From an uncultured Bdellovibrionales bacterium (GTDB lineage: Bacteria > Bdellovibrionota > Bdellovibrionia > Bdellovibrionales > UBA1609), in contig CAILEP010000022.1 in the NCBI GenBank assembly GCA_903833275.1, positions 62,001-126,000 on the forward strand: a DNA stretch of 64,000 nt, read 5' to 3'. The translations under genes and the position numbers were made by a program. Positions 1-41,175 of this stretch are shown here, piece after piece (position 1 is the first letter of the stretch; each line of letters opens with the position of its first letter). A model generated the notes under the pieces. That model searched no databases and was not told where the DNA came from. It worked only from the letters and a program-made list of their open reading frames with translations.

Positions 1-2
1 AA

Positions 3-10002: not shown

Positions 10003-10530
10003 TCTAGCCTCCGTAAATTCGATCTGACACCTTACCCTATCGCAAGGTTGATGCCGGCCGACCCACAGTACAAATGCTTGTTTTTATTGATGTTTATGCT
10101 ATAGCCAGCAACCCCAGGTTCAGCACCAGCTGGCTGCCAATTTTGGCTCGGCGCATTGCCGGGGCCAACAAATCACCCCTAAGGCCCGCACTGCCCTGAA
10201 ACAACTAAGGTTTTTAGGTCTGTTTAGAATTCTGACAGCCGTCAGACCCCAAAATGACAAATTTTGTGCGTTGCAGCCGGTTTTCTGCGCCAAATGGCCA
10301 AACGGTGCGAAGTGCTACCGAGTTCAACTTCCGATACCTATAAGCAAAACTTTCGTCTGCATCCTAGACCACCCTTTTAGGCAAAGTGGCCCCGAAAATG
10401 TTGGTCTCGGAACTGCAATTGTATCAATACAGCAAGTTCATTTAAGAGCTTGGCCCACCTGCTCCTTCCTTCGATCGAAGGGTTCTTTTAAGGAGCAACC
10501 AAACCCGTCGAATTCCCACCAACACCGCAA

Positions 10531-20819: not shown

Positions 20820-20844
20820 TTACCGCCTACTCCTTAAACTTTTG

Positions 20845-23891: not shown

Positions 23892-25331
23892 TTAAGGGGC
23901 TAACCCAAGAAATATTTGAGCCCTTGCCGTTTTGCAAAGGCCAAAGAACTCAGACATCTCTGGGAAGGCCTTGTTAAAATCAAGGCCACGCCGGCGATCA
24001 TATTCGTTTATAAACATAAAAAAATCGGTTCTCATTGTACCGAGCCAACGCGCTTGGGTGGGCACGCCCATATAGTCAATCAGGCGCCGCATCTTTGATA
24101 TTTCGTGCTCGCTAAAACCGCGATTAACCCCAAGCTTCTCTTCTGAAAGCTCGAGCATCAAGCTCAGACTTTGTTCAAAATATCGAATGTAACTGTCGGG
24201 TAAAATTTTAATCGATAGAAAACTCGGCAGTCGCAAATAAGAAATATCGATAGTCAAAGCGGGGCCATAACGGCGCTCGTCGTAAAATTCTTGTTTGATG
24301 CGCGCCACTTCTGTCAAAAGCCCTTTAAACCCAGTGACACTTAAGGCATTGGTGGTGCACATAATCACAATCTGAAGACTCGGGATTCGCTTTAATAGAC
24401 TTTCGACATTTCTAACGAACTCGTCGTATTTTTGACCGGTGCGAATGTATTCAGATTGCGCACCATAGGTGTCAACGCTGGTAAAAAGGGTGAACGACTT
24501 CACTTTTCTTGTTCGATCGGGCCCCAACCCCAAAAGGTTCTCAGCGTGTGTCGCCATTTTATCAATCAAGCCCACCGGCACACCAAGATTCGAATTAATC
24601 GCAAAATCGAGATTTAAATTTGGGTTGGCCTCTAAATGCTCGAACACCCGAAAGGTGCTGCGCGCAAGTAATGGTTCGCCGCCAGTAATTCGAAAAACTT
24701 TGAGACTCTGACAAACTTCAGGCCACCAAAGCCAAAAGGCGTCGATATAGGGGTTGGGCTCGTCTGGCGCATATGGCATCTTATCGATAAGCTTATAGTT
24801 ATCAAAGCTGTTAAAGTTTTGTGACGTTGGGTAAGAGCCAAATTGCTTTATCTCTTCAAACCATTTCGACGAAATATCGGGGCTACAATAAGCACATTTG
24901 AAATTGCAAGCGTTGCTGAAACTGACTTCAAGATAAGTCGGGTTGATATTTTCTTCGGGTGCGAGATTTTTTATTTCTTCGAGATTCGGCGCCGCCCAGT
25001 CTTCGTTTGATTTATGGGCGCGGTCACTCAGGTTGTCGCCAGGGGCGTCTTCGATATTCCAACAAAAATCACATTCTGACGGCCGCTCACCTCTGAGCAT
25101 CATTTCGCGCTGTTTTTTCTTAAATAACGTATTGTGAAGGGCACTCGGGTTATTTTTAATCTCATCGAGCGGTATTTTGTGCGGTATTGGGTGATGGCAC
25201 GAGTGGGTAAACCCAGTTTGCAAATGCATTGTCACTTGCAGCCACTTGGCGGCACAGAATGACGGCGAAATGCCATTTAATTTGTCGCGCATTTGCCGCG
25301 ACGTCAGATTGTGCGGTTTAGATTCGGCCAT
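23892..25331 (-). CDS. Twitch-domain radical SAM protein
   Basis: 479 residues. An N-terminal Cys-rich part resembles the twitch domain of this group (FCAAKWLQVTMHLQTGFTHSC ... ECDFCWNIED), then the radical SAM core has the 4Fe-4S motif CNFKCAYC (CxxxCxxC) near residue 140 and RITGGEPLL in the next strand. Such proteins commonly modify peptides or tRNA-like substrates; the substrate is unknown. The gene starts three bases after the stop of the methyltransferase at 25335 and is 12 bases from the next gene, so they are one operon. The neighbouring methyltransferase could act with it. Confidence 0.85.
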   Translation of the reverse strand: MAESKPHNLTSRQMRDKLNGISPSFCAAKWLQVTMHLQTGFTHSCHHPIPHKIPLDEIKNNPSALHNTLFKKKQREMMLRGERPSECDFCWNIEDAPGDNLSDRAHKSNEDWAAPNLEEIKNLAPEENINPTYLEVSFSNACNFKCAYCSPDISSKWFEEIKQFGSYPTSQNFNSFDNYKLIDKMPYAPDEPNPYIDAFWLWWPEVCQSLKVFRITGGEPLLARSTFRVFEHLEANPNLNLDFAINSNLGVPVGLIDKMATHAENLLGLGPDRTRKVKSFTLFTSVDTYGAQSEYIRTGQKYDEFVRNVESLLKRIPSLQIVIMCTTNALSVTGFKGLLTEVARIKQEFYDERRYGPALTIDISYLRLPSFLSIKILPDSYIRYFEQSLSLMLELSEEKLGVNRGFSEHEISKMRRLIDYMGVPTQARWLGTMRTDFFMFINEYDRRRGLDFNKAFPEMSEFFGLCKTARAQIFLGLAP

Positions 25332-26085: not shown

Positions 26086-27987
26086 TCACAACTCGCGATC
26101 AAAACTCGTCGCAATCCCAAGAGTTTTGATCAAGCCAAAAACCTGATCAACAGCCTCGTCTACCGAAGATTTGGCCGTATCGATAGTGACATCGGGGTGC
26201 TGCGGCACTTCGTAAGGCGAATTGATGCCGGTAAAGTCTCTGATCTCACCGCTGCGAGCTTTCTTATAGAGCCCTTTGGGGTCACGGCCCTCACAAACGG
26301 CAAGGTCGGTATTAAGATAAATCTCGCAGAAGTTCTCGCAAGTGTTACGAGCGTAATCACGCGACTCAGCAAACGGAGTAATCAAAGAAACAATCACCAC
26401 CCCGCCCTCGCGCTCAAGTTCGGCGGCACGCTCGGCAACGTACTTCGAGTGTTGAACCCGGTCGGTGCGCGAAAAGCCAATCTGAGGCCGTAGCGCGCGA
26501 ATGGCATCGCCATCGAGCAGGTGCGCTTCGATATTTGAAGCCTTCAATCGCCGCGCGACACCCTCGGCAATTGTGGTCTTACCCGAAGCCGAAAGACCCG
26601 TGAGCCACAACACAACGGGCTGAAATTCGTGGGCGGTAAATACTCCGGCTGCATCGGCCGAATTGAGCCTTCGCACCTGGGCCAATGCTAGCTCTGGCAA
26701 ATTCGGGCTGAAAGCGAAAAACGTCGGCTCGCTTAGCCGCAATGTCACTTGGCCGATTTCGTTTCGGCCAATTTCACGACGGTCTGGTGCGCTTCGGCCA
26801 ATTTCACGACGGTCTGGCGAGGCGCCTCGATCTTTGCCTAAAACGGCGATGTTCACTACTGTTGCCGTCACTTCTTTGGCAGCTCGCGAAAGCACAAGTG
26901 TTTCGCCAATCGCGAGCGGCTCGCTCAAATGCCAAAATAACGAGCCCACAAGATTTTTGGTCGATGCCCGTCGCTGATTCGCAACGGTCGACAACACATC
27001 ACCGCGTTTAAATAAAATTGGCGCAGACTTTTCGCTCGTCTCGAAAACAATACTTGCCGCCTGACCTTCGCCAACTTGATTTCTCTCTTCGAAACCACAA
27101 AAGATTTTTAGAATTTTACAATCTAGGATATTTTGGGCGTCGCCACCTGCCATCAAATTCGAAACTGTATCGCCGACTCGAATCTGGCCCTTCAAAACTT
27201 GCGTATAGAACAATCGAGCGCCCTCAGGCCAATTTTTTGACATTGCTTGGGGGCCGGCCTCGCCTTGAATTAAAATTATCGGGTCGCCGCCTGGTTGAAC
27301 GTTTCTGGATTGACCACTTCTTGTTATATCGCTCGCAGCGCGAGCCGCCCGCACGATTATTTCACGAAGCGAAGGGCCTTTGTACCACGGCAATTGATCG
27401 GTCGCTTCTGCTACATTCCAGCCGCGCAGGGCGCTCGCCACCACAAATTGAGGTGGGTTGGCCCCAAGGCCCGCCATAAACCCAGTAACCTCGTCGATTA
27501 GATTTTGATAAATAACGGGGGCGACCGCACCGCCGCAACCTGCAACCTGATCAATCTTATTTAGGCACACGATAAATTTTTGAATACCGAAGACGTGAAG
27601 AAGTCGCAGTTGCCTTTGAGTCTGCTCGCGAAAACCGCGAGTTAAATCTAAAACGATGACGGCAAAATCAGCCTGTACGGCCCCTGCCACCATTTTTGCT
27701 GTAAATTCGAAATGCCCCGGCGAATCGATGACCACTAAGGATTGTTTTTGACCGTTTTCGCTCTGCAATTGAATATATTTGTAGGCCAAATCGTAGGTGA
27801 TGCCCTCGGCTCGCTCAGAACGCAAACCATCTGACACATGCGAAAAATCGATCGCACCGTTTTCGCCTTCGATAAAGTCGGGCATTTGATCGGCAAACAA
27901 GCAGCCCGTGTCATGCATCAGTCGGCCGAGCAAAGTGCTTTTGCCGTCGTCAACGTTGCCAACAATGATAAACTTAGGCGCGCGCAT
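26086..27987 (-). CDS. cysNC: Bifunctional sulfate adenylyltransferase GTPase subunit / APS kinase
   Basis: 633 residues. The N-terminal GTPase has GNVDDGKSTLLGRLMHD (G1), DSPGHFEFTAKMVAGA (G3) and LNKID (G4), as in CysN; the C-terminal APS kinase has GLSASGKTTIAEGVARRL and DGDAIRALR. Together with CysD it would make APS and then PAPS. The single start ATG overlaps the last base of the cysD stop (TAATG). A linker near residue 400 carries a 30-bp tandem repeat (26763-26822) that repeats the peptide DRREIGR. No cysH, cysI or cysJ gene is nearby, so PAPS is more likely used for sulfation than for sulfate assimilation; the sulfotransferase at 30785 is the natural user. Confidence 0.95.
   Translation of the reverse strand: MRAPKFIIVGNVDDGKSTLLGRLMHDTGCLFADQMPDFIEGENGAIDFSHVSDGLRSERAEGITYDLAYKYIQLQSENGQKQSLVVIDSPGHFEFTAKMVAGAVQADFAVIVLDLTRGFREQTQRQLRLLHVFGIQKFIVCLNKIDQVAGCGGAVAPVIYQNLIDEVTGFMAGLGANPPQFVVASALRGWNVAEATDQLPWYKGPSLREIIVRAARAASDITRSGQSRNVQPGGDPIILIQGEAGPQAMSKNWPEGARLFYTQVLKGQIRVGDTVSNLMAGGDAQNILDCKILKIFCGFEERNQVGEGQAASIVFETSEKSAPILFKRGDVLSTVANQRRASTKNLVGSLFWHLSEPLAIGETLVLSRAAKEVTATVVNIAVLGKDRGASPDRREIGRSAPDRREIGRNEIGQVTLRLSEPTFFAFSPNLPELALAQVRRLNSADAAGVFTAHEFQPVVLWLTGLSASGKTTIAEGVARRLKASNIEAHLLDGDAIRALRPQIGFSRTDRVQHSKYVAERAAELEREGGVVIVSLITPFAESRDYARNTCENFCEIYLNTDLAVCEGRDPKGLYKKARSGEIRDFTGINSPYEVPQHPDVTIDTAKSSVDEAVDQVFGLIKTLGIATSFDREL
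26763..26822. repeat. 30-bp tandem repeat inside cysNC linker
   Basis: Two 30-base units (26763-26792 and 26793-26822), identical over the first 25 bases, each beginning TTCGGCCAATTTCACGACGG. They encode DRREIGR twice in the linker between the GTPase and APS kinase halves, so the reading frame is kept. A third degenerate unit may precede them. Confidence 0.8.
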
Positions 27988-28937
27988 TAGAAATACCCTT
28001 CGCGCTTGCGTTCTTCCATTGAAAATCGCGAAGTCTTGTCGTCCATGCGCAATCCGCGCTCAGAAATTTCAGAGGTTTTCAATTCGGCGATCACGTCATC
28101 AACATTGCGCGCGGCCGATTCGAAGAGTGCCGTGCAAGCCATGTCACCGACGGTGCGAACGCGAACACCCGAAACACGATGCGTGCTTTTGATAGCGCTG
28201 CCTTGGTCTGCGACTGGAGCCATCCACACGTCGCCCACTTTGAAACAATCTCGTTCGTGGCTAAAATAAATCGACGGCACTTCGAGTTTTTCGTCACGAA
28301 TGTAGTTCCAAATATCAAGCTCAGTCCAATTGCTGAGGGCAAAAACGCGCATGTGTTCGCCGGCCTGAAGTTTCGAATTTAGAATCGGCCAAAGTTCAGG
28401 CTCTTGGTTTTCGGGCTGCCATCCAGCAGCGACCCTCGCGCCTTTGGCCGAAGATAACGCGAGCCCTACATTTGCTGCCGGTGAAAAGCTCGGGTTTTGG
28501 CGACGAGAAAAAATGCGCTCTTTAGCGCGGGCCTTATCTTCATCGCGCCGAGCGCCACTAATAAGGGCGTCGATATTAAGTTCAGTGATCGCGTCATTGA
28601 GCGCATGTGATTGCAATTGATTGCGCGAAGCAATGGGGTCAAGCGTCACCCCTCGCCTGGCCATGGCATCAGAAACCGTGCGCACATAAAAAGGTCGGCC
28701 AATGCCCGACATACGTCGCTCGACAAAACTGAGAGCCTCTGAAAAATTATGACCGGTGTCGACCATCAGAAATTCAAAAGGCATTTGAGCCGGGTAAAAA
28801 GCTTTTTCAGCTAACCGGGCCAATACAACAGAGTCTTTGCCGCCAGAAAACAAAATAACCGGGCGGCGAAAGCCGGCCGCAGATTCGCGCAATATGTAGA
28901 TCGATTCAGCTTCAAGATTTGCGAAAGCAGTGTTCAA
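27987..28937 (-). CDS. cysD: Sulfate adenylyltransferase subunit 2
   Basis: 316 residues. The PP-loop motif FSGGKDSVVLARLAEKAF near residue 30 is diagnostic for the ATP sulfurylase small subunit, which activates sulfate to APS with CysN. FEFLMVDTGHNF and ALSNWTELDIWNYI also fit. The start is TTG, preceded by a run of G (GGGGGG) at about seven bases, a good ribosome binding site. It couples to cysNC by a one-base stop/start overlap. Upstream by about 120 bases is the smaller PqqD-like gene, so the sulfation genes continue the accessory run. Confidence 0.94.
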   Translation of the reverse strand: MNTAFANLEAESIYILRESAAGFRRPVILFSGGKDSVVLARLAEKAFYPAQMPFEFLMVDTGHNFSEALSFVERRMSGIGRPFYVRTVSDAMARRGVTLDPIASRNQLQSHALNDAITELNIDALISGARRDEDKARAKERIFSRRQNPSFSPAANVGLALSSAKGARVAAGWQPENQEPELWPILNSKLQAGEHMRVFALSNWTELDIWNYIRDEKLEVPSIYFSHERDCFKVGDVWMAPVADQGSAIKSTHRVSGVRVRTVGDMACTALFESAARNVDDVIAELKTSEISERGLRMDDKTSRFSMEERKREGYF

Positions 28938-29951: not shown

Positions 29952-30773
29952 TTAAACTTCTTCAAAGTAGCGATACAAGTAAAAATCATGTTTCGCGGCC
30001 TTTAGTTTTAATTTTGGGATTTTGAGAGGCCCCCTCGCACGCTTGAGAAACACCACACTCTCACCCGAAAACTGGCCCCTCATTTTTTGAACCACACAAT
30101 GCACACCAATTAGTCTCGACAGCCATTGCTCAAGAGTTACAAGCTGGCCATTCTTAAGCCGTACAAAGGTTTTTTTAAATGGAGCATGAAGCAAAATTCG
30201 ACCACTTCGAGTTAGTAACTTAAAATACTTTTTTAGCACAAAGTCTATTGTGGTCGTGTAGGTTAAAACGCCAGTGTAATCCGTAATTAAATTAGCTGGG
30301 CCGATCTTAGCCAGCGAAAGTGTTTCAAATTTTCGACCTGATAACATTCTGTACTTCTCACCAAAATTTTGCGGCACGCCCGCTGAAACTCGAAAAGAAA
30401 TTGATGTCATTCGGGGCAGAGGCCGTCGAGTTTGTACCGCTTTTGGCCAACCCGCCCGTTGAAGTTGAGCAAGCCCTTCGCCGGCACCGCAATCGAGCCA
30501 GTGCCCCCGAGAGCCGAATTTTTTGAGCTCTTCTAAAAGAGCACGTTTAAAAAGCGGCCGATAATCTACGCACGTTCGATCGACAGTATAGGGGTTTTGC
30601 TCAATGAGTCTCTCAACAATTGCTTTTGGTCTGACTTTTTCATTTCTGCTAAAAAATGAACCCAAAAACTTTTTAGACTCATTCGGGTTATTTAGCCGAC
30701 TGATCTCAAAATCGCGGGTGCGACCCTTCGGCCGCTTGATTAAAATTAAATTTGGCAATGAATCTGAGCGCAA
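29952..30773 (-). CDS. Class I methyltransferase-like protein
   Basis: 273 residues. Motif I-like HWLDCGAGEGLAQL near residue 93 is the strongest evidence, then PANLITDYTGVLTYTTTIDFVLKKYFKLLTRSGRILLHAP fits the end of the Rossmann fold. The first 80 and last 60 residues are basic and poorly conserved, so the assignment is moderate. The start used is TTG at 30773, 11 bases after the stop of the sulfotransferase; another in-frame TTG follows five codons later. It is one of three methyltransferases in the leftward run. Confidence 0.65.
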   Translation of the reverse strand: MRSDSLPNLILIKRPKGRTRDFEISRLNNPNESKKFLGSFFSRNEKVRPKAIVERLIEQNPYTVDRTCVDYRPLFKRALLEELKKFGSRGHWLDCGAGEGLAQLQRAGWPKAVQTRRPLPRMTSISFRVSAGVPQNFGEKYRMLSGRKFETLSLAKIGPANLITDYTGVLTYTTTIDFVLKKYFKLLTRSGRILLHAPFKKTFVRLKNGQLVTLEQWLSRLIGVHCVVQKMRGQFSGESVVFLKRARGPLKIPKLKLKAAKHDFYLYRYFEEV

Positions 30774-30784
30774 ATTGTCGATGG

Positions 30785-31735
30785 CTAACCTCTTGGCGGT
30801 TCAGAAAAAAATCTCTCTTGCGCCCGCCGAACCCGCTCAAGATCACGATAAATTTTTATTATTTCGCGCGGCACCTTTGCGATGGCACGCTTTTCTTCGC
30901 GCCAAAGCGTCTTTTCATTTGATTTCGAATAAAAATCGAATCTTGAACGCATCGCCACCAAAGTCGATTTCGAAAGCCCCTTTAAATTTAAAAACTGAAT
31001 AAGCTCTGGCAGAAAACTCGCTCTAATCTGTTTATAATTCAATAACGCGGCCGAGGGCCCCTTCGATTTTGCGAAGACTTTCATTTGATACTCTAAACTC
31101 TCAATTAACTTTATTCGACGGTCTTTTTTTGGTAACCGCAAAAGTCGATCGGGCGGCCCTCGAAGATTAGAATCAATCACGGCTACTGGCTCTCGATAAA
31201 CAATTAAAAATTTCGATTTTGGGTAAATTTTTTGTAAATGCCTTAACCATTCTGTAGAACTCGCAAACTTAATAATGATTCGACCTTCGCCATCTAACAT
31301 CGCGGCTTTAAACGCCTCAATAGCAGCAACGAAAAGAGCCAATTTCATGCTTACGCTTAAAGATTTCGCAAGCGAAATATCGTTAAAAATACTCGGCTCA
31401 GACAATACTAAATTTTTCGAGTCTTGAGATAGTACCTGCGATAAAAGTGTCGAGCCGCAGCGTGAAATATGAAAGATAAAGGCTGCGGGGCAGGTATGTT
31501 TTGTTTGGGTTGAAAATTTCAAAAGCGAATCGACATCGGTAACAATTTTAACCGCCCGCCGACCGCCTTTCGACCGAATTCGGTCTACAGTTTGGCCAAA
31601 AAAGGGGTCTGTAAACTTGATTTGATCGCGTCGCAGCCATTCGACAAAATATGAATTATTCTTTTTAAATAATCGCACGGGCAAAAAAGTCGAAAGCTCA
31701 GCCGTTTCAGCTTGTTGACTCGCTTTAGATCTCAA
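30785..31735 (-). CDS. Sulfotransferase-like P-loop protein
   Basis: 316 residues. AFIFHISRCGSTLLSQVLS near residue 82 is a PAPS-binding 5'-phosphosulfate loop (HISRCGST), and LVLSEPSIFNDI and FLIVYREPVAVIDSNLRGP fit the rest of the fold, including the Arg and Ser used at the 3'-phosphate. Sulfotransferases move sulfate from PAPS to hydroxyl or amino groups of sugars, peptides or lipids. The nearby cysD and cysNC can supply PAPS. A C-terminal Arg-rich tail follows. The start is TTG and overlaps the end of the GT2 gene by 11 bases. Acceptor unknown; with GT2 and peptide genes around, a sulfated sugar or peptide is the leading guess. Confidence 0.78.
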   Translation of the reverse strand: MRSKASQQAETAELSTFLPVRLFKKNNSYFVEWLRRDQIKFTDPFFGQTVDRIRSKGGRRAVKIVTDVDSLLKFSTQTKHTCPAAFIFHISRCGSTLLSQVLSQDSKNLVLSEPSIFNDISLAKSLSVSMKLALFVAAIEAFKAAMLDGEGRIIIKFASSTEWLRHLQKIYPKSKFLIVYREPVAVIDSNLRGPPDRLLRLPKKDRRIKLIESLEYQMKVFAKSKGPSAALLNYKQIRASFLPELIQFLNLKGLSKSTLVAMRSRFDFYSKSNEKTLWREEKRAIAKVPREIIKIYRDLERVRRAQERFFSEPPRG

Positions 31736-32858
31736 TGAAAAACCCCGTTTTTTTTAATTTAGAAAAACTACTTGCGTCTATGGGGCGCCCCTCACGTACG
31801 CCACGCACGCATTTCTTTAATTGTGGCGAAAGCTTCTCACCTGTCATTTTTCTTTGAAAACCGAATACGTCATCGTCAATCCAAATAAAAGAAGCCCCCG
31901 GCCTCAAAGCATATTTTCTCTTTTTATAATCAAACGAGTATCGCAACGTACCCGGGCCTATTTTGGGCTGCCAACTTTCGAAGCGCCACCTTTTTCGCTT
32001 AGGCCGAGACAAATTTAAAGCCAGCCCGAATAAATCTGACACTTCAACCAACGCGGCATAAATTTTCAAATTCAGATCTTCTTCAGACGAAAGAATTTGC
32101 CCAATAAATCGCCACTCTGGGTAGCGAATTAAACTCTTTGGCGTTGGCGACTCTTTTGCCACTTCAACTTGCCGCCCAAGATAAGCAATCTCTCGCGCGA
32201 ACAAGCCGCTTCGCTCACACTCGAACTGTACCGTGGCCTTTGCTTTGCTGACCCCACCAATTAAAAACGAATTTGCGAAAAGCCGTCGTGAAAGCTCGGT
32301 GTCTTCAAACCTTTTAAGAGACTCATTAAAGCCCGAAACTTTTAAAAAAGCTGTTTTTGAGATAAGAAAGGCCGCGGCATTCACAACCACCCTCGCCTTT
32401 TCACGATTCTGTAAACTAATAAAACGGCCCTTGCTTCGCCAATTGGCCCATAAATAGCGATATCTGTCGGTTAGTGTGGTTTGATCGCCAACCGGCATGA
32501 CTTTGGTAGCCGCAACATCAATTTTAAGCTCTTGCATCGCGGCCAAAGTATTTCGAAGCCAATGACGATCTAGCACCACATCACAATCAACAAAGGCTAA
32601 GTAATCACCTTTAGCGCTCGCAGCCCCACAATTTCGTGCGCTGCCTCGCCCGATTTTGCTACACGACAATATTTTAACGTTTTTAAATCTTTTAACGACT
32701 TTAGTCGTTTCATCAAAAGATTGGTTATCTACGACAATAACTTCAAAATTCTTTTCAGATTGTTCGAAAATAGAAGCCAGCGTATTCGAAATCGTTTTTT
32801 GACCATTTCGAACCGGTACAACAAATGAAACCTTAGGCCTTTTTATGCCGAGACCCAT
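31725..32858 (-). CDS. Glycosyltransferase family 2
   Basis: 377 residues. The N-terminal VSFVVPVRNGQKTISNTLASI and the metal-binding FVDCDVVLDRHWL (DxD-like) define a GT-A fold of family 2. The Asn-rich start and SKIGRGSARNCGAA also fit. The C-terminal third contains no membrane helix, so it is soluble or peripheral. The start overlaps the end of the PqqD-like gene by 26 bases. In context it would glycosylate an acceptor in the peptide or polysaccharide pathway of this locus. Confidence 0.85.
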   Translation of the reverse strand: MGLGIKRPKVSFVVPVRNGQKTISNTLASIFEQSEKNFEVIVVDNQSFDETTKVVKRFKNVKILSCSKIGRGSARNCGAASAKGDYLAFVDCDVVLDRHWLRNTLAAMQELKIDVAATKVMPVGDQTTLTDRYRYLWANWRSKGRFISLQNREKARVVVNAAAFLISKTAFLKVSGFNESLKRFEDTELSRRLFANSFLIGGVSKAKATVQFECERSGLFAREIAYLGRQVEVAKESPTPKSLIRYPEWRFIGQILSSEEDLNLKIYAALVEVSDLFGLALNLSRPKRKRWRFESWQPKIGPGTLRYSFDYKKRKYALRPGASFIWIDDDVFGFQRKMTGEKLSPQLKKCVRGVREGRPIDASSFSKLKKTGFFIEI

Positions 32859-33138
32859 TAGATTCTAGCTCGATAAGATTCTTATTTACCATAAAGGCAA
32901 TCGCCTCGTTTAAACCGTCATTGTTCGCCTTCAATTGTCTTTCAATATCGCCAACAGCAAGCGCGCCTTTTGATTTTACCATTGCCTTATTGAGTAGAAC
33001 TACAAGCTTTGAGGCTTCACCTTCAAACTGATACAGACAATCATCATCAATATTTAAAACGATTGACGTATGATCGCCATTGTCTTTTACAAGAACCGCC
33101 TGTTTAAGACGGTATTTTGAATTATTTGAATTTTTCAT
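32833..33138 (-). CDS. PqqD-like / RRE-like small protein coupled to the peptide gene
   Basis: 101 residues from the ATG at 33138. That start forms an ATGA overlap with the stop of the preceding 66-residue gene, so the pair is translationally coupled. The body (SKYRLKQAVLVKDNGDHTSIVLNIDDDCLYQFEG, then EASKLVVLLNKAM and ALAVGDIERQLKANNDGLNEAIAFMVNKNLIELES) has the strand-strand-helix pattern of PqqD-type peptide recognition domains, although it is divergent. It could recognise the peptide encoded just before it. An earlier in-frame ATG at 33174 would give a short extra tail inside the upstream gene and is less likely. Confidence 0.65.
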   Translation of the reverse strand: MKNSNNSKYRLKQAVLVKDNGDHTSIVLNIDDDCLYQFEGEASKLVVLLNKAMVKSKGALAVGDIERQLKANNDGLNEAIAFMVNKNLIELESNGSRHKKA

Positions 33139-33335
33139 GTGCCCGTCATTGTTATCGTCCCGGTCCCGGCACAAGCAAATACTGACACCGGCGCGTTTGA
33201 AACTGACAGTTTACCAAACATCTTTACTCTACCAAAGCCACCTTTAAATACTTTAATGTCATTCTGACTTTTTTTTTTGACCTTGGTTTTTTTTGCCTTA
33301 GCCGTCTTTTTCTTAGCGTTCTTATTCTTAGCCAT
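33135..33335 (-). CDS. Lys-rich small protein, candidate RiPP precursor
   Basis: 66 residues with a strong ribosome binding site (AAAGGA, complement of 33345-33350). The N-terminal half is almost all Lys and Ala; the middle has a KGGFGRVKMFG segment with a Gly-Gly at residues 32-33; the C-terminal 20 residues are NAPVSVFACAGTGTITMTGT, rich in Thr with a Ser, a Cys and a C-terminal Thr. This leader-then-core shape next to a PqqD-like gene is what a modified-peptide precursor would look like. It lies at the centre of genes for methyl, glycosyl, sulfo and hydroxyl transfer. It is not certain: it could instead be a small basic nucleic-acid-binding protein. Confidence 0.6.
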   Translation of the reverse strand: MAKNKNAKKKTAKAKKTKVKKKSQNDIKVFKGGFGRVKMFGKLSVSNAPVSVFACAGTGTITMTGT

Positions 33336-33420: not shown

Positions 33421-34104
33421 TTATGGATGCGGCGTGTTAGCGCGAGCACGACATTTATAGATCTGAAACTTATCCGATAACTCAAAGGGTTTACCGTTAA
33501 AATCACCCCATCGCTCGACAACTTCGAAGTCATTGTTCAAAAGAATTTCTTCAATCTCTTTCGGAAAGAAATTATTAATTCGCTCAGGGTAAGTTGGGCC
33601 TTGCTCGCCATTAACATTATACCAATTTATTCGGCTTATCCGCGGCGAAGCTCGACCAACATCAGGCACGGGATTATACCAGTTGAAAACAAGGGCATTT
33701 GTAACGTCAAAGATAAAATGCCCGCCTTCTGCCAAATGTGCTCTGACCCGGCCCAAAAGCTGTTCGATTTTTTCTTTCGTTTGAAAAAAAATACTAAAGC
33801 CATTGTAGGGCAATAAAATGGCGTCAAATTTTTGATCGATTTCAAGGGTTAAACAATCTTCGAAAATAAATCTTGGTGAGTTACCCAATAAACGCGATTT
33901 TTTAATCGCCGTTCGTAAACGCAATAATGAATTGTCGACACCCACCGCCGACAATCCGCCTTCAGCCAATGGTATGGTAATTCGGCCCGTACCACAGGTG
34001 AGCTCGAGCACTTGCTGACCACACTTGCGTGCTTCACTAACATAAAATTCAATGTCGCAGGTGCGGCGGCCCCAATGTTCGTCATAGTTTTCAAATGACT
34101 GCAT
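33421..34104 (-). CDS. Class I SAM-dependent methyltransferase
   Basis: 227 residues. Motif I is VLELTCGTGRITIPLAEGG near residue 34, the acidic strand-2 end VGVDNS fits, and AILLPYNGFSIFFQTKEKIEQLLGRVRAHLAEGGHFIFDVTN completes the fold. The ATG has GGAG eight bases upstream. The stop is 86 bases before the Lys-rich small gene. No substrate can be read. In context it would modify the same product as the other methyltransferases of the run. Confidence 0.82.
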   Translation of the reverse strand: MQSFENYDEHWGRRTCDIEFYVSEARKCGQQVLELTCGTGRITIPLAEGGLSAVGVDNSLLRLRTAIKKSRLLGNSPRFIFEDCLTLEIDQKFDAILLPYNGFSIFFQTKEKIEQLLGRVRAHLAEGGHFIFDVTNALVFNWYNPVPDVGRASPRISRINWYNVNGEQGPTYPERINNFFPKEIEEILLNNDFEVVERWGDFNGKPFELSDKFQIYKCRARANTPHP

Positions 34105-34119: not shown

Positions 34120-35286
34120 TTAACGAAATTTATGATCATAAAGAAGTGTCACATTAATGCGGCGATTTTCGTAACCTTCTTTGAATTTTAAATTATCGGT
34201 CTTGTGCAAATATTGTGAATCAAAAATAACCATCCGGTTTTGCCGATACGTAACTTTTATCGGCGCCTGTTTCGACTTTTTAAGTAATTCAAACCTCTGC
34301 GTTTCTTTGGCACTTTCTTGCGAATTGTAGTCACGAAAAGACCAGTTACCTGGCGGCTTACAAGGCCAAACAATCATACCGCCGCTTTGGCTGTCGAGAT
34401 TCGCCTCATTGGGTGAAAGCCAAAAATTACTGTTAACGCGAGCGTCGTCTGCATGCACGCCAATACCACTAAGTTTAGAGTCATATTTATAAGCCCACGC
34501 CAATCGTAAGGCATCATTATCGTATATTTTTGAAAATTTCGTCTTTAGCTCTTCGGCAATTTGAAATAACAAACCACAAGTAAAACCATCATCAATATAG
34601 GCCCCGAGATACCCCGCCGCCTTTGAATCATACCAAAAGGTAGATTCTAAACAAAACCGGCGCATCTGAGCCAGGGCCTTGGGGTTCAAAAAATCATCAA
34701 AATAGACAATTCGGCGATCTTTAGCAAAATAGGCCTTTTCAATTTCTCGAATACGTAATTTTGGGTTAAGCGCACCACCCTTAATCGCTTCAGGTAAATA
34801 TAAGTTAACCGCTTTGTCATAAAAATCTTTGATCATCTCTTTAATCGTGCCGGTAACCTCAAAACCGCCGCCAGCGTAACCGACGCTGTCTGCCATCTGC
34901 AGCAGGCTCTTCAAGTCTCGGGTCTTATTCTGAAAACTTTTTGAAATTCGACCGTTCGCAACGAGATACTCGAGTTGTTCAAGATCATGCCTTAGTCGCG
35001 AAATAGTTAAAGAGCTTGGCGGCTGCCGCTCAAAGGCTCGATTCGCAATTGTAGACCGAACCCCTCGTCGCATCATATAGGCCTTATTTAGCTCTGAATG
35101 CGCCCCCTGCCATTTGCCCTGGCGTAATTTAATTACCCCCATGGCAATGTGGGCCGATGGCAAATGTGGGGCCATTCGAATCGCTTTTGAGGCAAGTACT
35201 TCAGCACCCTCAAAATTGCCAGTTGCATGGGCCTTTCGCGCCGCCGCAACTAGATCCATATAAAAAACCACATCAATGTCTTTCAT
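34120..35286 (-). CDS. TPR protein fused to a 2-oxoglutarate/Fe(II) oxygenase-like domain (paralogue 1)
   Basis: 388 residues. The first 80 residues form about two TPR-like repeats (LVAAARKAHATGNFEGAEVLASKAIRMAPHLPSAHIAMGV). The C-terminal part has an oxygenase signature: GVHADDARVNSNFWLS (HxD) and VIFDSQYLHKTDN with the second His, then RRINVTLLYD with the Arg that would bind 2-oxoglutarate. Such enzymes hydroxylate proteins, peptides or small molecules. It begins directly at the base after the stop of its paralogue at 35287, so the two are co-translated. The pair share long blocks, for example IVWPCKPP and NSNFW. A TPR can hold the substrate peptide. Confidence 0.75.
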   Translation of the reverse strand: MKDIDVVFYMDLVAAARKAHATGNFEGAEVLASKAIRMAPHLPSAHIAMGVIKLRQGKWQGAHSELNKAYMMRRGVRSTIANRAFERQPPSSLTISRLRHDLEQLEYLVANGRISKSFQNKTRDLKSLLQMADSVGYAGGGFEVTGTIKEMIKDFYDKAVNLYLPEAIKGGALNPKLRIREIEKAYFAKDRRIVYFDDFLNPKALAQMRRFCLESTFWYDSKAAGYLGAYIDDGFTCGLLFQIAEELKTKFSKIYDNDALRLAWAYKYDSKLSGIGVHADDARVNSNFWLSPNEANLDSQSGGMIVWPCKPPGNWSFRDYNSQESAKETQRFELLKKSKQAPIKVTYRQNRMVIFDSQYLHKTDNLKFKEGYENRRINVTLLYDHKFR

Positions 35287-36462
35287 CTACTCAACTCGCC
35301 CAATATTTTCACTATGAAGAAGGGTTACATTCATGCGCCGATTTTCATAACCTTCTTTAAATTGAAACTTATCTGTTTTATGTAAAAACTTAGAGTCAAA
35401 AATAACCATTCGATTTTGCCGATAGGGCACATAAATTGGCGACACTTTTGATTTACCAAGCATTTCGAGACGCTTCTTCTCGGGCTTCGGCTCAACCGAA
35501 TTATAATCTCGAAACGACCAACTTTGAGGTGGTTTGCACGGCCAAACTATAATGCCGCCACCCTTTGCGCTTAAGCGAGCCGAGTCGGGGGTTATCCAAA
35601 AATTACTATTTACACTCGCTTCGTCGGCATGCAAAGGGGTGCCCGGCATTTTTGAATCACATTTAACTGACCAGGCCATGCTCAATGAATTGTCGCCATA
35701 TATTTTAGGCAGTTTTTCTTGAAGCTCAGCAGCGATTTGATGCAACAGACCACATGAAAAGCCATCATACAAAGTCGCCATTAAATAACCATCGAGCTTA
35801 ACATTGTGCCAAAAAGTTGATTCAAGGCAGAAAGCACGAACCTGCTCAAGAGCTTGAGGCTTTAGAAAATCATCAAAATAAACAACTCCACGACCGTTGC
35901 CGAGGTAAGTTTTTTCGATGTCTCTAAATCGAAGCTTTGGATTCAATGCGCCGCCCTTGATTGGCTCTGGCAAATAAAGGTGAATGGCTTTACCGTAGAA
36001 TTCTTTTATGATCTGCCGGGTAGCCAATGATACGCTAATGCTACCCCCCTTAAGGCCATCAGCAATAGACTCTTGAACAAGCCTCTTCAAAGATCGAAGC
36101 TTGGATTGCGTTATTTTTAAACGCACACCTTTTGCCATTAAATATTCGATTTGCTCGAGATCATGCATAAGTTTTGGCAAAGTTATAAACGCCGGCGTTC
36201 GGCGCCGCTCGGTATCTTTGGTGAAAGCGGCGCGGGGCCCCCGACGCAGCAAATACGACCCATGCATGGCGGGCACCGCCGCCTTCCAATCGCCTTTGCC
36301 AAGTTTTATGGCCCCAAGCAATTGGTGGGCGGCTGGCAACTTAGGGGCCATTGCTACCGCCTGGGCCGCAAAAAACTCAGCAGCCTCTATACTCCCCTGC
36401 ATTTGGGCTTTTTGTGCCGAAAGAAAAAGGTCCATATATAAAATGACTTCTTCATCCTTCAT
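35287..36462 (-). CDS. TPR protein fused to a 2-oxoglutarate/Fe(II) oxygenase-like domain (paralogue 2)
   Basis: 391 residues, closely related to the gene at 34120 and immediately upstream of it: the same TPR-like start (MDLFLSAQKAQMQGSIEAAEFFAAQAVAMAPKLPAAHQLLGA), HxD in PLHADEASVNSNFW and the second His in VIFDSKFLHKTDKF, Arg in RRMNVTLLH. The two are a tandem duplication that has diverged, with full metal ligands in both, so both are likely active. A strong ribosome binding site (AAAGGGGG) precedes its ATG. Probably hydroxylases of the locus product; the substrate is unknown. Confidence 0.75.
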   Translation of the reverse strand: MKDEEVILYMDLFLSAQKAQMQGSIEAAEFFAAQAVAMAPKLPAAHQLLGAIKLGKGDWKAAVPAMHGSYLLRRGPRAAFTKDTERRRTPAFITLPKLMHDLEQIEYLMAKGVRLKITQSKLRSLKRLVQESIADGLKGGSISVSLATRQIIKEFYGKAIHLYLPEPIKGGALNPKLRFRDIEKTYLGNGRGVVYFDDFLKPQALEQVRAFCLESTFWHNVKLDGYLMATLYDGFSCGLLHQIAAELQEKLPKIYGDNSLSMAWSVKCDSKMPGTPLHADEASVNSNFWITPDSARLSAKGGGIIVWPCKPPQSWSFRDYNSVEPKPEKKRLEMLGKSKVSPIYVPYRQNRMVIFDSKFLHKTDKFQFKEGYENRRMNVTLLHSENIGRVE

Positions 36463-36488: not shown

Positions 36489-38087
36489 CTACATCCTAAA
36501 AAGAAAATCTGAATTGTTCGTATTGTCAGTAAATACACCAAATTTATCGATGGCTTTCAAATCAAGCGATTGCAAAAATGAGCGCCTAATCGTCGCAGTT
36601 GATTGGCTATTCAACTGAAACGGGCCCGCCGCCGCTATCGGATTTTTGTCATCATGAATACCTGGCTTCAGATGACTTAAAACCACAATCAGATTGGCCG
36701 TGCCAGCTTCAGAAATGCCATTTTCTCGAGCGAAAGAAAATAACTCTACCGCCATCTCGGGGTGGTGTGCCCTTAGCCCATTTACAATCTTGGCTACCAT
36801 CACAGTTTTTGCTGAAGGTTTTTTGGCCTCGGGGCCCCATTGGCCAATTGTGTCCATTAAAATTGCCCCGCCCGGGGCGAGATGCTTATGCAATAAATCG
36901 TAAAATTCAATCGATAGCAAATGGGTGGGCACCATGCCCGAAAAAAATGCGTCGACAAATATTGCGTCATACTGATCGCCATTAGCGGCCAACCACCGGC
37001 GCGCATCACCGACTATATATTTGTGTCTCGCATTCATCGGGTTAAAAAACTGGCTCGCAATTCGAGGCAAAAATGGGTCAATATCTAAAAGATCAACTTC
37101 AACTTTAAGCCCCATACGCTGAGCGTCTTTTTCGATTTGTTGTGATTGGCAACCCTCGCCGCCACCGACAATCAGAATTTTTCTTGGGTTTTCGACGCGA
37201 CTGAGCGCATACTCACCCACCACAACCGGAAAGAACGTAGAATCGAGCAACTGGCCGGCCGTATCAAACTTCATTATGCATGCCCACAGGCCCAAGTAGT
37301 TTGCCGCTAAACCGCGCGCAGTAATCGAGTCATCTCTTTTTAAATCAAAAATTCTAAAATTCGCATAAGGTGTTTCAACATGGTGTTTTAGATTTGGTTC
37401 AACCTTGAGGTCATTGGCGACAAAAATTGCAAGTATTGTAAGACCCGCAGCCAAGAATATTTTTTTCTTTTGTACGGCAACACCTGACGCAAAAAGCAGC
37501 GCCAGCCCTAAAAATACCAACTGGTACTCAGAGGTAAAATGATCGATATTTGAAATTGCCAAAATATGACCTATACAGCCGACCGCTGAACCGAGCGCAC
37601 CCACTATCAATACTCTTGAAATAGCGCGAACGGGTTCGCTCGACACTTCGACAGAACGCTTGTAAAGCAAAAAGCTCAAGGCACCAATCTGAATTGTTAT
37701 CGGCACTACGAACAACACGTATACCAAACATTCATCCAAAATACTTGGCGGCAAACTTTTCTGCGCCAGTGCCACAACCCAAGATTTCGTGCTCAAAATT
37801 AGAAATACAAAGGCGGCGCAACCGGTGAAAAGCGCAGCGATCACCCGCCAAACTGGCTTATTGGCATCTGCACCCACATAAAGAAACGCCAAGTACTGAC
37901 CAATTGAAAAACCGATAACGAAGGCGCTTATCAGCAGGCACCAAGAAATTATTGATGCTCCAAAAAAACCAGCATAGAAACGCCCCAATAAAAACTCGAT
38001 ATTTAAAAAGAAAAAACTCGTAAAACCCACAAGGGCAATGAGTCGCTTTTGCTCTGCAGTGAGAACTTCTGATCCTTGCGGTTTCAT
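36489..38087 (-). CDS. Membrane protein with spermidine-synthase-like domain
   Basis: 532 residues. The N-terminal 230 residues carry about six to eight hydrophobic helices (LIALVGFTSFFFLNIEFLL, LISAFVIGFSIGQYLAFLYV, ALFTGCAAFVFLIL and others). The C-terminal domain is spermidine-synthase-like: ILIVGGGEGCQSQQIEKDA, VDLLDIDPFLPRIASQFF, GDARRWLAANGDQYDAIFVDAFF and LAPGGAILMDTIG. Membrane-fused SpeE-like proteins are common and their substrates are mostly unknown; they do not necessarily make spermidine. It is the first gene of the long leftward run, 26 bases before the oxygenase pair and divergent from the ABC transporter. Confidence 0.8.
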   Translation of the reverse strand: MKPQGSEVLTAEQKRLIALVGFTSFFFLNIEFLLGRFYAGFFGASIISWCLLISAFVIGFSIGQYLAFLYVGADANKPVWRVIAALFTGCAAFVFLILSTKSWVVALAQKSLPPSILDECLVYVLFVVPITIQIGALSFLLYKRSVEVSSEPVRAISRVLIVGALGSAVGCIGHILAISNIDHFTSEYQLVFLGLALLFASGVAVQKKKIFLAAGLTILAIFVANDLKVEPNLKHHVETPYANFRIFDLKRDDSITARGLAANYLGLWACIMKFDTAGQLLDSTFFPVVVGEYALSRVENPRKILIVGGGEGCQSQQIEKDAQRMGLKVEVDLLDIDPFLPRIASQFFNPMNARHKYIVGDARRWLAANGDQYDAIFVDAFFSGMVPTHLLSIEFYDLLHKHLAPGGAILMDTIGQWGPEAKKPSAKTVMVAKIVNGLRAHHPEMAVELFSFARENGISEAGTANLIVVLSHLKPGIHDDKNPIAAAGPFQLNSQSTATIRRSFLQSLDLKAIDKFGVFTDNTNNSDFLFRM

Positions 38088-38211: not shown

Positions 38212-39030
38212 ATGACACCTCACGCAAGCGCACTCCCAAGCCAATTGCCAGGCCCTTACTCGCGCCAAAGCCAGTGGCGCACCAAGATGCGCCAGGCGGT
38301 GATTTTAACCGCGGCCAGTCTTAAAACTCGCTACCGCAATACGGTTTCTGGGCTCGTTTGGGTGATTTTAAACCCGCTGCTTATTTTTGGCGCCCAGGCC
38401 TTCGTTTTTCACAATGTACTGCACATCAATGTCGCAAATTATCCACTTTTTCTTCTCAGCGGCTTACTACCGTGGGTTTTTCTCGTGCAATCCGTCGAAA
38501 TGGGCACCGGCGCGTTTACCCAGTCGGGTAAATTGCTGAAATCCTTTCCGGTGCATCCGTTTGTCATTTTAAGTTCCCAGATTCTCGACAATCTTTTTAA
38601 TTTTTTGCTTTCATTTACCATTATACTTCTGCCGACCGCCCTGGCCTTTCATTTTGACTGGCCCCGGTATCTACTCGTGCCGCTGTCGATTATCCCGCTT
38701 TTTATTTTCGTCATCTCGTTTGTGTTTCTGCTCGCCACGGTTCAGGTTTTCTTTTGGGACACCCGTTTTGTCATGTCTTTTGCCATGAGTGTCGCCTTTT
38801 ACATGACCCCAATTATTTACCCGATCGAGTTTATCGAAGAAAAATATCGCTGGATTATCAGCCTCAACCCCTTTTGGCAGGTGCTTCACCCCTTTCAGAT
38901 CGCCATTTCGGGCGACCTGCATTTGTACAGTGCGAGCCTTGCGAACTCGTTTCTGACCGCCGCTTTGATGGCCGGCCTCGCTTTTATAAATTGGGGGCGT
39001 TCAAAAAATGAATTCTACTTCTACATTTGA
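38212..39030 (+). CDS. ABC-2 type exporter permease (Wzm/TagG-like)
   Basis: 272 residues with six predicted membrane helices and the start pattern AVILTAASLKTRYRNTVSGLVWVILNPLLIFGAQAFVF of polysaccharide or teichoic acid exporters. Paired with the ATPase at 39008, with a 23-base overlap. It would export a polymer or a lipid-linked or peptide product across the inner membrane; family precedent favours polysaccharide. No ribosome binding site is visible; a weak -35/-10 pair (TTGCGT, 18 bases, TACGCT) ends six bases before the ATG. This promoter would be in the 124-base gap to the divergent gene at 38087. Confidence 0.88.
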   Translation: MTPHASALPSQLPGPYSRQSQWRTKMRQAVILTAASLKTRYRNTVSGLVWVILNPLLIFGAQAFVFHNVLHINVANYPLFLLSGLLPWVFLVQSVEMGTGAFTQSGKLLKSFPVHPFVILSSQILDNLFNFLLSFTIILLPTALAFHFDWPRYLLVPLSIIPLFIFVISFVFLLATVQVFFWDTRFVMSFAMSVAFYMTPIIYPIEFIEEKYRWIISLNPFWQVLHPFQIAISGDLHLYSASLANSFLTAALMAGLAFINWGRSKNEFYFYI

Positions 39031-39922
39031 GCCGACATCAGAAAGCCCTTCAGAAAGCCCGTCAGAAAGCCAAAAAGGTGCCGAACCAATGACGCGGCAA
39101 GGGTTTGTGGCTAGCCCTGTCACTGGAGCTGATGCCCAAACCCCCATTTCAGCGCCCATAATCGCCCAATGCAATGATATTGATCTGGTTTATCGGGTTC
39201 GGCTTTTTCGCGATCGAACTCTTCGCGACATCTTTGTCAGCCTTTCGCGCGACCCCTTAGGCTTTCTGCTCAAGAAAAAAGACCGCCTTCATGTGCTTCG
39301 AAAAGTGTCACTGAACATCTACAGGGGCGACCGAATTGGCATTCTGGGCTTTAACGGCGCCGGCAAGACCTCGCTGTGCCGCTGTTTTGCCAATGTTTAT
39401 ACTCCGAATAGTGGTAAAATTAAGGTGTTTGGCCGAACGCGAGCCGTTTTTGATACGAGCGTCGGCATTTACCCCGAGCTCACCGGTCGCGAGAACGCTG
39501 AAATACTGGCGCAGTTTATGTATCCTGACGTCAGCGACTCTGAGCGCAAGCAGCTTATTCTTGAGGCCCTCGAGTTTTCTGAGCTCGGCAACTTTGTCGA
39601 TGCGCCCTTTAAAACCTACAGCAACGGCATGCAGGCCCGCCTGTGCCTGTCGATTATCTCATGCCGGTCGCCCGATTTGTTAATTTTGGATGAAGTGTTT
39701 GATGGGGCCGACAAATTCTTTCGCGAAAAAGTCTCGCATCGAATCGTTCAGCTTATCGAAAATTCGGGCGCGGTGATGTTTGTTTCGCACTCCCCCGAGC
39801 AGGTCGATCGCATTTGCAACCGCGTGATTGTCATCCATGACGGGCTGATCGCCTTCGACGGCCCCAAAGATGACGGAATAAAGTACTTCAATTCGCTCAA
39901 ACCTCGCGCTACGATCGGCTAA
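39008..39922 (+). CDS. ABC transporter ATP-binding protein (Wzt/TagH-like)
   Basis: 304 residues. Walker A is GFNGAGKTSL, the signature motif is the variant SNGMQARL seen in Wzt/TagH-type exporters, and Walker B is LLILDEVFDGAD. An N-terminal extension of about 45 residues contains SES-PSES repeats and a Pro/Ala-rich linker before the domain. Wzt-type ATPases often carry a C-terminal carbohydrate-binding domain; that is absent here, so export does not depend on a cap reader of that type. It forms one transporter with the permease before it. Confidence 0.88.
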   Translation: MNSTSTFEPTSESPSESPSESQKGAEPMTRQGFVASPVTGADAQTPISAPIIAQCNDIDLVYRVRLFRDRTLRDIFVSLSRDPLGFLLKKKDRLHVLRKVSLNIYRGDRIGILGFNGAGKTSLCRCFANVYTPNSGKIKVFGRTRAVFDTSVGIYPELTGRENAEILAQFMYPDVSDSERKQLILEALEFSELGNFVDAPFKTYSNGMQARLCLSIISCRSPDLLILDEVFDGADKFFREKVSHRIVQLIENSGAVMFVSHSPEQVDRICNRVIVIHDGLIAFDGPKDDGIKYFNSLKPRATIG

Positions 39923-39960
39923 GTGATCAATCTAATAAAAAGTTCGGCGAGGTGCCGCCC

Positions 39961-41175
39961 ATGAGCGAGCTTGAAACATTTGAAAATGCGTCGCCAATTG
40001 AGCCCGAAACCCCCGCGAAAAAAGCCTTCGCCTCGCCTTCACGAACCGCAGGTTATTCGAGCCAACCAATAAAAGCCCCGGCCCCCGCGCGCGGTGAAGT
40101 TCGTTTTTCTATTTACGGTCAACGCGTGCGTCTGATTGGGCCCGTCGCGCTGACACAAGATCTTGCCGAAGATTTTTCATATTTCGTCACAGCTGCTGGA
40201 CAACGGCCGGCGCCGGCCGCCGATCTCACAATCGAAATTCGACAGCATAAATTCATAATTAAGCCCGAGAAGTTTTTTAAAACTAAGAACTACACGATTT
40301 ATGGCCGCTCGCTGCAACGCTACGTCGAGTACGAAGATGGCAGTAAAGTGATTGTCACTCACAATCTCGTCGATGGCCGACTGGTTAGCATCATGGCCCA
40401 CGAAGCGGCTCGCTCTTACGAACTTGCCTATTTAGTTTTGCACTCGTTTGTTGGCGAAAAACTCGAAGCGCGCGGGCTTTTACGATTGCACGCCCTGGCG
40501 TTTAACCGCCAAAACTGCGACGTAATTTTATTTTTACCCTCGGGCGGCGGCAAATCTTCTCTCGCGGCAATGATGCTCAAGCGCCCCGATTGCCAAATCT
40601 ATTCTGACGAAGTAACGCTGCTCGAAAATTCGTGTTTGCGCCCGTACCCTTGGCGAATTGGTCTCGACCAAAAAAGCGCCTCCAAACTCGGCCCGGCTCT
40701 CGGGCTCGACACCACACATTCTAGAACAGCCCAACGCACAGATGGCCGCGCCAAATACCTTTTGCCTATACCAACAGAGAAAATTGCCAGCCCGGCGAAT
40801 GAACCCGCCGAAATAAATACTAACGACGATACGACGCTCACGACGACACCCAATATTTATTGGGGTGTTTTAAATCTTGTCGCTAACAACGCCGACCAGA
40901 AGGGCGAGCCCGTTGTACGCCTAGCACTCTTTAAAGAAAAGCTTCAATTTCTAACTTCGGTCGTTCTGGGCTTGGGCCTTATGCAAATGGCTGAGTACAT
41001 TGTGCGCACCGATAATTTTCAGCAAATGATACGCACTGGTTTTCGCCGCCTCATCTGGGCGCTAAAAGCCGTTCGCAGTCTACGCGTAATTGAAGTCACC
41101 CGCGACTACGACAAAGTGCTTTCGGTTTTGGGCGAAGACCTCGCAACAAAACCCCACCACCAGCCCAATACATAG
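39961..41175 (+). CDS. HprK-like P-loop kinase
   Basis: 404 residues from the ATG at 39961, which has GAGG eight bases upstream; a GTG three codons earlier is in frame but less likely. The P-loop FLPSGGGKSSLAAMM near residue 192 and IYSDEVTLLE shortly after are the HprK/P pattern; the N-terminal 180 residues do not resemble the HPr-binding part. HprK-related proteins without PTS partners occur beside PqqD-type genes, and one has been shown to phosphorylate the end of a lasso precursor peptide, so this one might phosphorylate a Ser or Thr of the small peptide. The C-terminus overlaps the convergent GT2 gene by 70 bases. Confidence 0.72.
   Translation: MSELETFENASPIEPETPAKKAFASPSRTAGYSSQPIKAPAPARGEVRFSIYGQRVRLIGPVALTQDLAEDFSYFVTAAGQRPAPAADLTIEIRQHKFIIKPEKFFKTKNYTIYGRSLQRYVEYEDGSKVIVTHNLVDGRLVSIMAHEAARSYELAYLVLHSFVGEKLEARGLLRLHALAFNRQNCDVILFLPSGGGKSSLAAMMLKRPDCQIYSDEVTLLENSCLRPYPWRIGLDQKSASKLGPALGLDTTHSRTAQRTDGRAKYLLPIPTEKIASPANEPAEINTNDDTTLTTTPNIYWGVLNLVANNADQKGEPVVRLALFKEKLQFLTSVVLGLGLMQMAEYIVRTDNFQQMIRTGFRRLIWALKAVRSLRVIEVTRDYDKVLSVLGEDLATKPHHQPNT

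Follow-up and report, generated by a model that had tools for sequence, protein, structure and literature searches.

Does a 66-residue reading frame that overlaps a gene for a PqqD-like protein encode the precursor of a ribosomally made, post-translationally modified peptide (RiPP)? RiPP precursors are short and are mostly overlooked by annotation. We examined this pair in a 64,000-nucleotide stretch of DNA from an uncultured Bdellovibrionales bacterium, here called the window (Table 1). The original prediction, made from sequence alone, took a precursor plus a recognition protein as the likely reading and left the core open. We found that this reading is supported and can be made more specific. 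The gene likely encodes a RiPP precursor, and conservation now places a proposed core boundary after VFA, at residue 54. The product, its modification, its cleavage, and its export are inferred, without expression or binding data.

The full peptide sequence is MAKNKNAKKKTAKAKKTKVKKKSQNDIKVFKGGFGRVKMFGKLSVSNAPVSVFACAGTGTITMTGT. As predicted, both reading frames are present and share an ATGA, which contains the stop codon TGA of the 66-aa frame and the start codon ATG (33138) of the 101-aa frame. The Gly-Gly at residues 32 and 33 also held, as did the Thr-rich end that contains Ser and Cys. The ribosome binding site (AAGGA), which had been called strong, is good and not exceptional. Among 20,000 versions of the 286-nt stretch shuffled by mononucleotide, 114 had an ATG-initiated frame of at least 66 aa, and thus the length of the frame alone is modest evidence. 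The gene is convincing because related peptides exist in similar clusters, as described below. It is present in a single copy in its own genome. We found no significant Pfam or NCBIfam family for the 66-aa peptide or the 101-aa protein, and neither had a match in viral contigs and plasmids.

Table 1. Features of the window, with strand and the basis for each assignment
Feature	Coordinates	Strand	Basis or remark
Nucleotidyltransferase-like protein, 325 aa	22902..23879	-	Sequence reading; no Pfam match; common to many family loci
Twitch-domain radical SAM protein	23892..25331	-	NF033640, 319.7 bits (cut-off, 170)
CysD and CysNC, sulfate activation to PAPS	26086..28937	-	PAPS is the donor for the sulfotransferase
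PqqD1, canonical PqqD, about 96 aa	29059..29349	-	Pfam PF05402, 39.1 bits (gathering cut-off, 23.4)
Short S26-like protease, 127 aa	29565..29948	-	Conserved Ser (GSM) and His (VCHY); without a strong membrane segment
SAM methyltransferase-like protein	29952..30773	-	Motif LDCGAGEG; no family match; similar proteins in genomes of the class
Sulfotransferase	30785..31735	-	PF13469, 29.7 bits (cut-off, 27)
GT2 glycosyltransferase	31725..32858	-	Kin of MftF (score below cut-off) and of the GT2 genes adjoining PqqD in L232 and L073
PqqD2, divergent PqqD-like (RRE-like) protein, 101 aa	32833..33138	-	Translationally coupled to the peptide through ATGA
Precursor peptide gene, 66 aa	33135..33335	-	Reading frame, family alignments, motif test
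Peptide parts (residues)	Lys/Ala-rich leader, 1-26; FGRVK, 34-38; VFA boundary, 52-54; proposed core CAGTGTITMTGT, 55-66
Class I methyltransferase	33421..34104	-	Best NCBIfam model daptide-type (NF041820), 71.3 bits (cut-off, 175)
Two paralogous TPR and 2OG-Fe(II)-oxygenase-like proteins	34120..36462	-	54% identical to each other
Fused membrane/spermidine-synthase-like protein	36489..38087	-	NF037959
Wzm/Wzt-type ABC transporter, candidate exporter	38212..39922	+	Divergently transcribed
HprK-related kinase-like protein	39952..41175	+	TIGR04352, 20.9 bits (far under cut-off, 200)

The window encodes two PqqD-type proteins, 3.7 kb apart. PqqD1 meets the gathering cut-off of PF05402. PqqD2 does not, and it has no PqqD domain in Pfam or NCBIfam. 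We found that PqqD2 scored 13.3 bits against a PqqD profile made from the phylum, for which the best of 2000 shuffles reached 8.3, and hhalign gave an E value of 5e-6. PqqD2 is therefore a divergent relative of the phylum's PqqD proteins, on the evidence of the phylum profile only, and the predicted PqqD-like assignment held in part. Two AlphaFold models of PqqD2 have the element order E-E-E-H-H-H, but their mean pLDDT is 43 to 46; at this low confidence they are too poor to decide if the protein has the peptide groove that the original prediction required. Foldseek with these unreliable models found no significant PDB match, a PDB sequence search found none, and PqqD2 was not found in 59 relatives.

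On the minus strand, the gene order is spermidine-synthase-like, two oxygenase-like, methyltransferase, peptide, PqqD2, GT2, sulfotransferase, methyltransferase-like, S26-like, PqqD1, CysD, CysNC, another methyltransferase, twitch radical SAM, and nucleotidyltransferase-like. We infer from this layout that the set is an operon; a single transcript has not been shown. Of the neighbors originally predicted, the methyl-, glycosyl-, and sulfo-transfer genes held. The hydroxyl-transfer enzyme and the S26-like protease held in part, as both score under curated cut-offs: one oxygenase-like protein (34120-35286) has only a weak Pfam match (E value, 0.009), and the S26-like protein reaches 17.5 bits against 22.9 for PF10502 and 32.9 against 51.85 for TIGR02228. 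GC content is 41 to 46% over 29 to 37.5 kb, with flanks of about 50%, and this dip coincides with the tailoring genes. None of 140 other genomes in the order has the window oxygenases. Because of the lower GC content and these missing oxygenases, the tailoring part of the operon looks acquired. Public genomes, those of Prochlorococcus among them, hold relatives of the oxygenases at 34 loci, and we found neither the peptide nor PqqD2 nearby. Separately, three large proteins with pilin-like N termini (one PF07963 match) and repeated Cys/Thr-rich blocks are encoded downstream of the operon (16300-22713, minus strand).

We searched the class with the neighboring proteins of the window and fetched two loci, L070 and L071, for sulfotransferase, PqqD, or S26 similarity. 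Their peptides were found by a scan for Lys-rich small reading frames in which the FG and V[FY]A motifs were not used. L070 encodes a homologous sulfotransferase (33% identical to that of the window), a PqqD-like protein, a full LanB dehydratase (PF04738, 143.9 bits; PF14028, 87.5), and then a 58-aa Lys-rich peptide ending in TTDPYGC. L071 encodes PqqD, an S26-like protein, CysD/CysNC, and two tandem Lys-rich peptides ending in PVYASPTGGT and PVYASPTVVGT. Both tandem copies retain FGxLKKKKI..LPVYASPT, and their differences are confined to the leader and the short tail. When we aligned the peptides of the window, L070, and L071, all had FG-x-[ILV]-K followed by V-[FY]-A, behind which comes a short variable tail. 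Related peptides near PqqD genes in other genomes were what the original prediction had called for as a check, and this check was passed.

A profile built from these four sequences matched only its own members strongly; it also flagged L140 and L189 and, upon inspection, L073, which has a full LanB dehydratase, as L070 does, and CysNC. We then ran a nine-sequence profile over 369 genomes of the phylum (inferred to be Bdellovibrionota) and found the family in 30 of them. Ten members, in eight genomes, are short-core precursors (G000, G084, G141 twice, G039, G048, G357, G330, and G261 twice). The short precursors of the seven genomes other than that of the window share FG-x-[ILV]-K and V-[FY]-A, and mostly the Lys-rich N terminus as well. 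Some motifs are inexact, with IIHG (G048) or VYG (G330) for V[FY]A and WG for FG (G357). The Gly-Gly at residues 32 and 33 is not conserved in the family, and we rejected it as a double-glycine cleavage site. The precursors of G261 (E value, 7.5e-5) and G357 (1.9e-5) were found by the profile alone, at previously unknown loci, which turned out to have PqqD genes at distances of 1.3 and 8.1 kb. G261 has a compact operon of PqqD, GT2, and two precursors, with a GT2 of the same group as that of the window. The minimal operon at L232 consists of PqqD, GT2, and two Cys-rich precursors. No NCBIfam or Pfam model and no description in the papers searched covers the precursor family, and this leader family, with its one recognition motif, has no name under those searches.

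The two L232 precursors (9770-10293, minus strand) lie in tandem right behind PqqD and GT2 and have Cys-rich cores of roughly 60 aa. The short precursor of L189 (2260-2439, minus strand) has a Tyr-containing acidic core, ETYPEYPNT, and a full signal peptidase I (1-786, minus strand; PF10502, 127 bits) is encoded 1.5 kb away. PqqD-linked small peptides of a different type (L112:231-404, minus strand; L114:8722-8883, plus strand; L111:8645-8842, plus strand) have a leader K.Y..P.....K, followed in two loci by FGALCNG...GGRK. These probably represent a second RiPP family in the class.

One could instead read the peptide as a small Lys-rich protein that binds nucleic acids or associates with ribosomes and lies upstream of the PqqD-like gene by chance. 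The composition of residues 1 to 26 fits this, and no family match contradicts it. However, the Lys-rich part is the variable element in relatives, being absent in L232, while FGxxK and V[FY]A are kept, and the loci are biosynthetic. The absence of any Pfam or NCBIfam link also passed the original prediction's check against ribosomal and histone-like families. We regard this explanation as all but ruled out.

A second objection is that the window peptide resembles the family only by chance, being an unrelated precursor or a spurious frame in a low-GC insert. The held-out scores are in its favor. When held out of the profile, the window peptide scored 5.1 bits, with 50 of 2000 shuffles equal or better; with S74-type members (described below) included, it scored 4.2 bits, with 131 of 5000 shuffles as good. 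The other short members scored above all 2000 shuffles when held out, except for G048 (1 of 2000). The window peptide is thus the most divergent member, with the weakest membership of the ten. The GC dip and the indecisive frame length also fit the chance explanation. Against it are the ribosome binding site, the ATGA coupling, the K-rich leader, and the double motif at matching spacing, as well as the CysD/CysNC, sulfotransferase, S26, PqqD, and GT2 neighbors that are common to family loci (CysD/CysNC likewise accompany the L071 peptides). The double motif FG.[ILV]K.{5,20}[VI][FY]A occurred in 33 of 200,000 shuffles of the C-terminal part of the window peptide. In a pool of 36,173 frames, it was found in nine distinct short frames, all nine of them family members. 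This test is partly circular, because the window had already been seen when the motif was chosen. Since the held-out score is weak, membership rests on the leader, double motif, ATGA coupling, and operon together, and a chance likeness appears very unlikely.

We compared gene content in 29 family loci and 11 control loci by Fisher tests. The controls are few and were not drawn at random; most are other stretches that had been fetched or false matches of the family profile. None of the 11 controls had PqqD (17/29 family loci; 6e-4), radical SAM (23/29; 5e-6), S26-like (13/29; 6e-3), Wzm (15/29; 2e-3), or nucleotidyltransferase-like genes (16/29; 1e-3). Wzt alone was not enriched in this comparison. 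Where enough of the surroundings is available, most members have PqqD, S26-like protease, radical SAM, or ABC genes nearby. The family combines a small peptide that has a conserved leader motif and a hypervariable C-terminal core, seen in alignments and tandem copies, with a PqqD (RRE) gene that adjoins it, as in the window overlap, or is fused to it. For the peptide of the window itself, the motif supports this well and the profile only weakly.

The fusions belong to a second kind of member. In 22 genomes, an S74 autoprotease domain comes after the N terminus FGxI/L...VFA|GSD. The domain bears SDxxxK, which is reported to be the catalytic signature of Bdellovibrio S74 proteins (PMC10769870). 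Pfam confirmed the domain on three members. These N termini are of the FGxxK/VFA kind, with an unconserved Lys-rich part of mixed charge. Two members have, upstream of the motif, a fused PqqD domain that scores above the PF05402 cut-off (L096, 29.3 bits; L225, 28.8 bits); these PqqD-leader-S74 proteins are about 245 to 275 aa (L096:1018-1842, minus strand; L225:1201-1935, plus strand). Among 18 S74-type genes, 8 directly adjoin a radical SAM gene and 7 a PqqD gene, within 200 nt; the one adjoining radical SAM protein scanned carries SPASM. S74 relatives on plasmids and viral contigs align mostly from residues 31 to 46 on, chiefly over the S74 domain, and four plasmid rows align from residues 15 to 19.

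These members raise a third alternative, in which the Lys-rich FGxxK N terminus is mainly an address tag that steers short peptides or S74-domain proteins to a shared export or surface assembly machine (Wzm/Wzt, S26-like) and most operon enzymes act on a glycan and not on the peptide. Genes for glycosyltransferases, a NodU-type carbamoyltransferase, and O-antigen-type ABC proteins are plentiful in S74-type loci, the S74 members are big enough to be scaffold proteins, and Bdellovibrio uses S74 fibres (PMC10769870). Against this, the LanB proteins of two loci and the SPASM radical SAM protein directly beside a precursor belong to peptide-modifying families, PqqD adjoins or is fused to the precursor, and the L071 copies vary only in leader and tail. 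We consider an address tag unlikely and favor the RiPP precursor.

For the RiPP precursor, leader recognition by PqqD is the best reading because the fusions put PqqD and leader in one chain. The PqqD-like protein would bind the leader around FGxxK and present the peptide to the GT2, the sulfotransferase (fed by CysD/CysNC), the oxygenases, and the methyltransferases. These enzymes may modify Thr, Ser, or Cys of the core; which residues and which enzymes is not established. Sulfation is tentatively favored, because dedicated PAPS genes and sulfotransferases occur in several short-core loci. The soluble Ser-His S26-like protease would then cut after VFA (FGRVK...VSVFA|CAGTGTITMTGT), and the Wzm/Wzt-type transporter would export the product. 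Signal peptidases prefer V or I at position -3 and A or G at -1 (V-x-A). All ten short members have V/I and A/G at these positions before the variable tail, and nearly all of 18 S26-like proteins conserve the Ser of SM-x-P and the Sec11-type His. The clusters' S26-like proteins are closest to archaeal/SipW-type signal peptidases and have no strong membrane segment. The S26-like protein of the window is a possible leader peptidase, with cleavage inferred. Against the RiPP reading as a whole, several short precursors (G261, G357) showed no S26-like gene in their vicinity, and PqqD2 and the oxygenases are missing from the 59 relatives and the 140 genomes, respectively, noted above.

A bolder, phylum-wide reading is conceivable. 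One leader grammar (a Lys-rich or charged N terminus, FGx[ILV]K, and V[FY]A) may serve a modular machine with exchangeable cargo, either S74 chaperones or short cores rich in Thr, Cys, or Tyr; interchangeable LanB, radical SAM, glycosyltransferase, and sulfotransferase enzymes; and O-antigen-type ABC export. The peptides would then carry exported sulfated or glycosylated surface material, and there would be two ways to cut near the same boundary, by an S26-like protease in trans or by S74 in cis. The analysis yields a leader motif that can be used in searches, proposes a leader protease, and points to a minimal cassette of four genes (PqqD, GT2, and two precursors in L232). Most of the hosts appear to be predatory, and little is known of the peptide chemistry of such bacteria. 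The fusions of PqqD to the precursor, together with the S74 variants, could give an unusual view of a RiPP recognition system adopting protein-sized cargo.

Several known systems were rejected for the window: a lasso peptide cluster (no AsnB homologue, the asparagine-synthetase-like cyclase, in the window), daptide (on the NF041820 score in Table 1), and mycofactocin, because the GT2 matches MftF TIGR03965 at 103.4 bits against a cut-off of 280 and no mycofactocin precursor was seen. A class I lanthipeptide was also rejected, as the full-length LanB of L070 and L073 is absent from the window. The discrete PqqD/RRE pathways (lasso B1, WgkC, ScmD, and GeoRSP) are alike in having a small precursor with leader and variable core, a separate PqqD-type protein, and tailoring enzymes, and the phylum's PqqDs match their NCBIfam models weakly. 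Unlike them, the window family has a leader that is rich in Lys and carries FGx[ILV]K and V[FY]A, and no NCBIfam model covers its precursor. The proteases of nickel SOD maturation and the Sec11/SipW-type S26 proteases resemble the window protein (32.9 bits for TIGR02228 and 19 for TIGR02754, both under cut-off) in being short S26 enzymes with Ser and His and in the proposed N-terminal removal at small residues. The window protein differs in that no membrane anchor was seen and its proposed substrate is a PqqD-linked peptide. Finally, the Bdellovibrio S74 fibres (MAT proteins; PMC10769870) have the S74 autoprotease domain with SDxxxK in common with the larger family members; in contrast to those fibres, these members are only about 145 to 165 aa, lack a large fibre domain, and carry the FGxxK...VFA leader at the N terminus.
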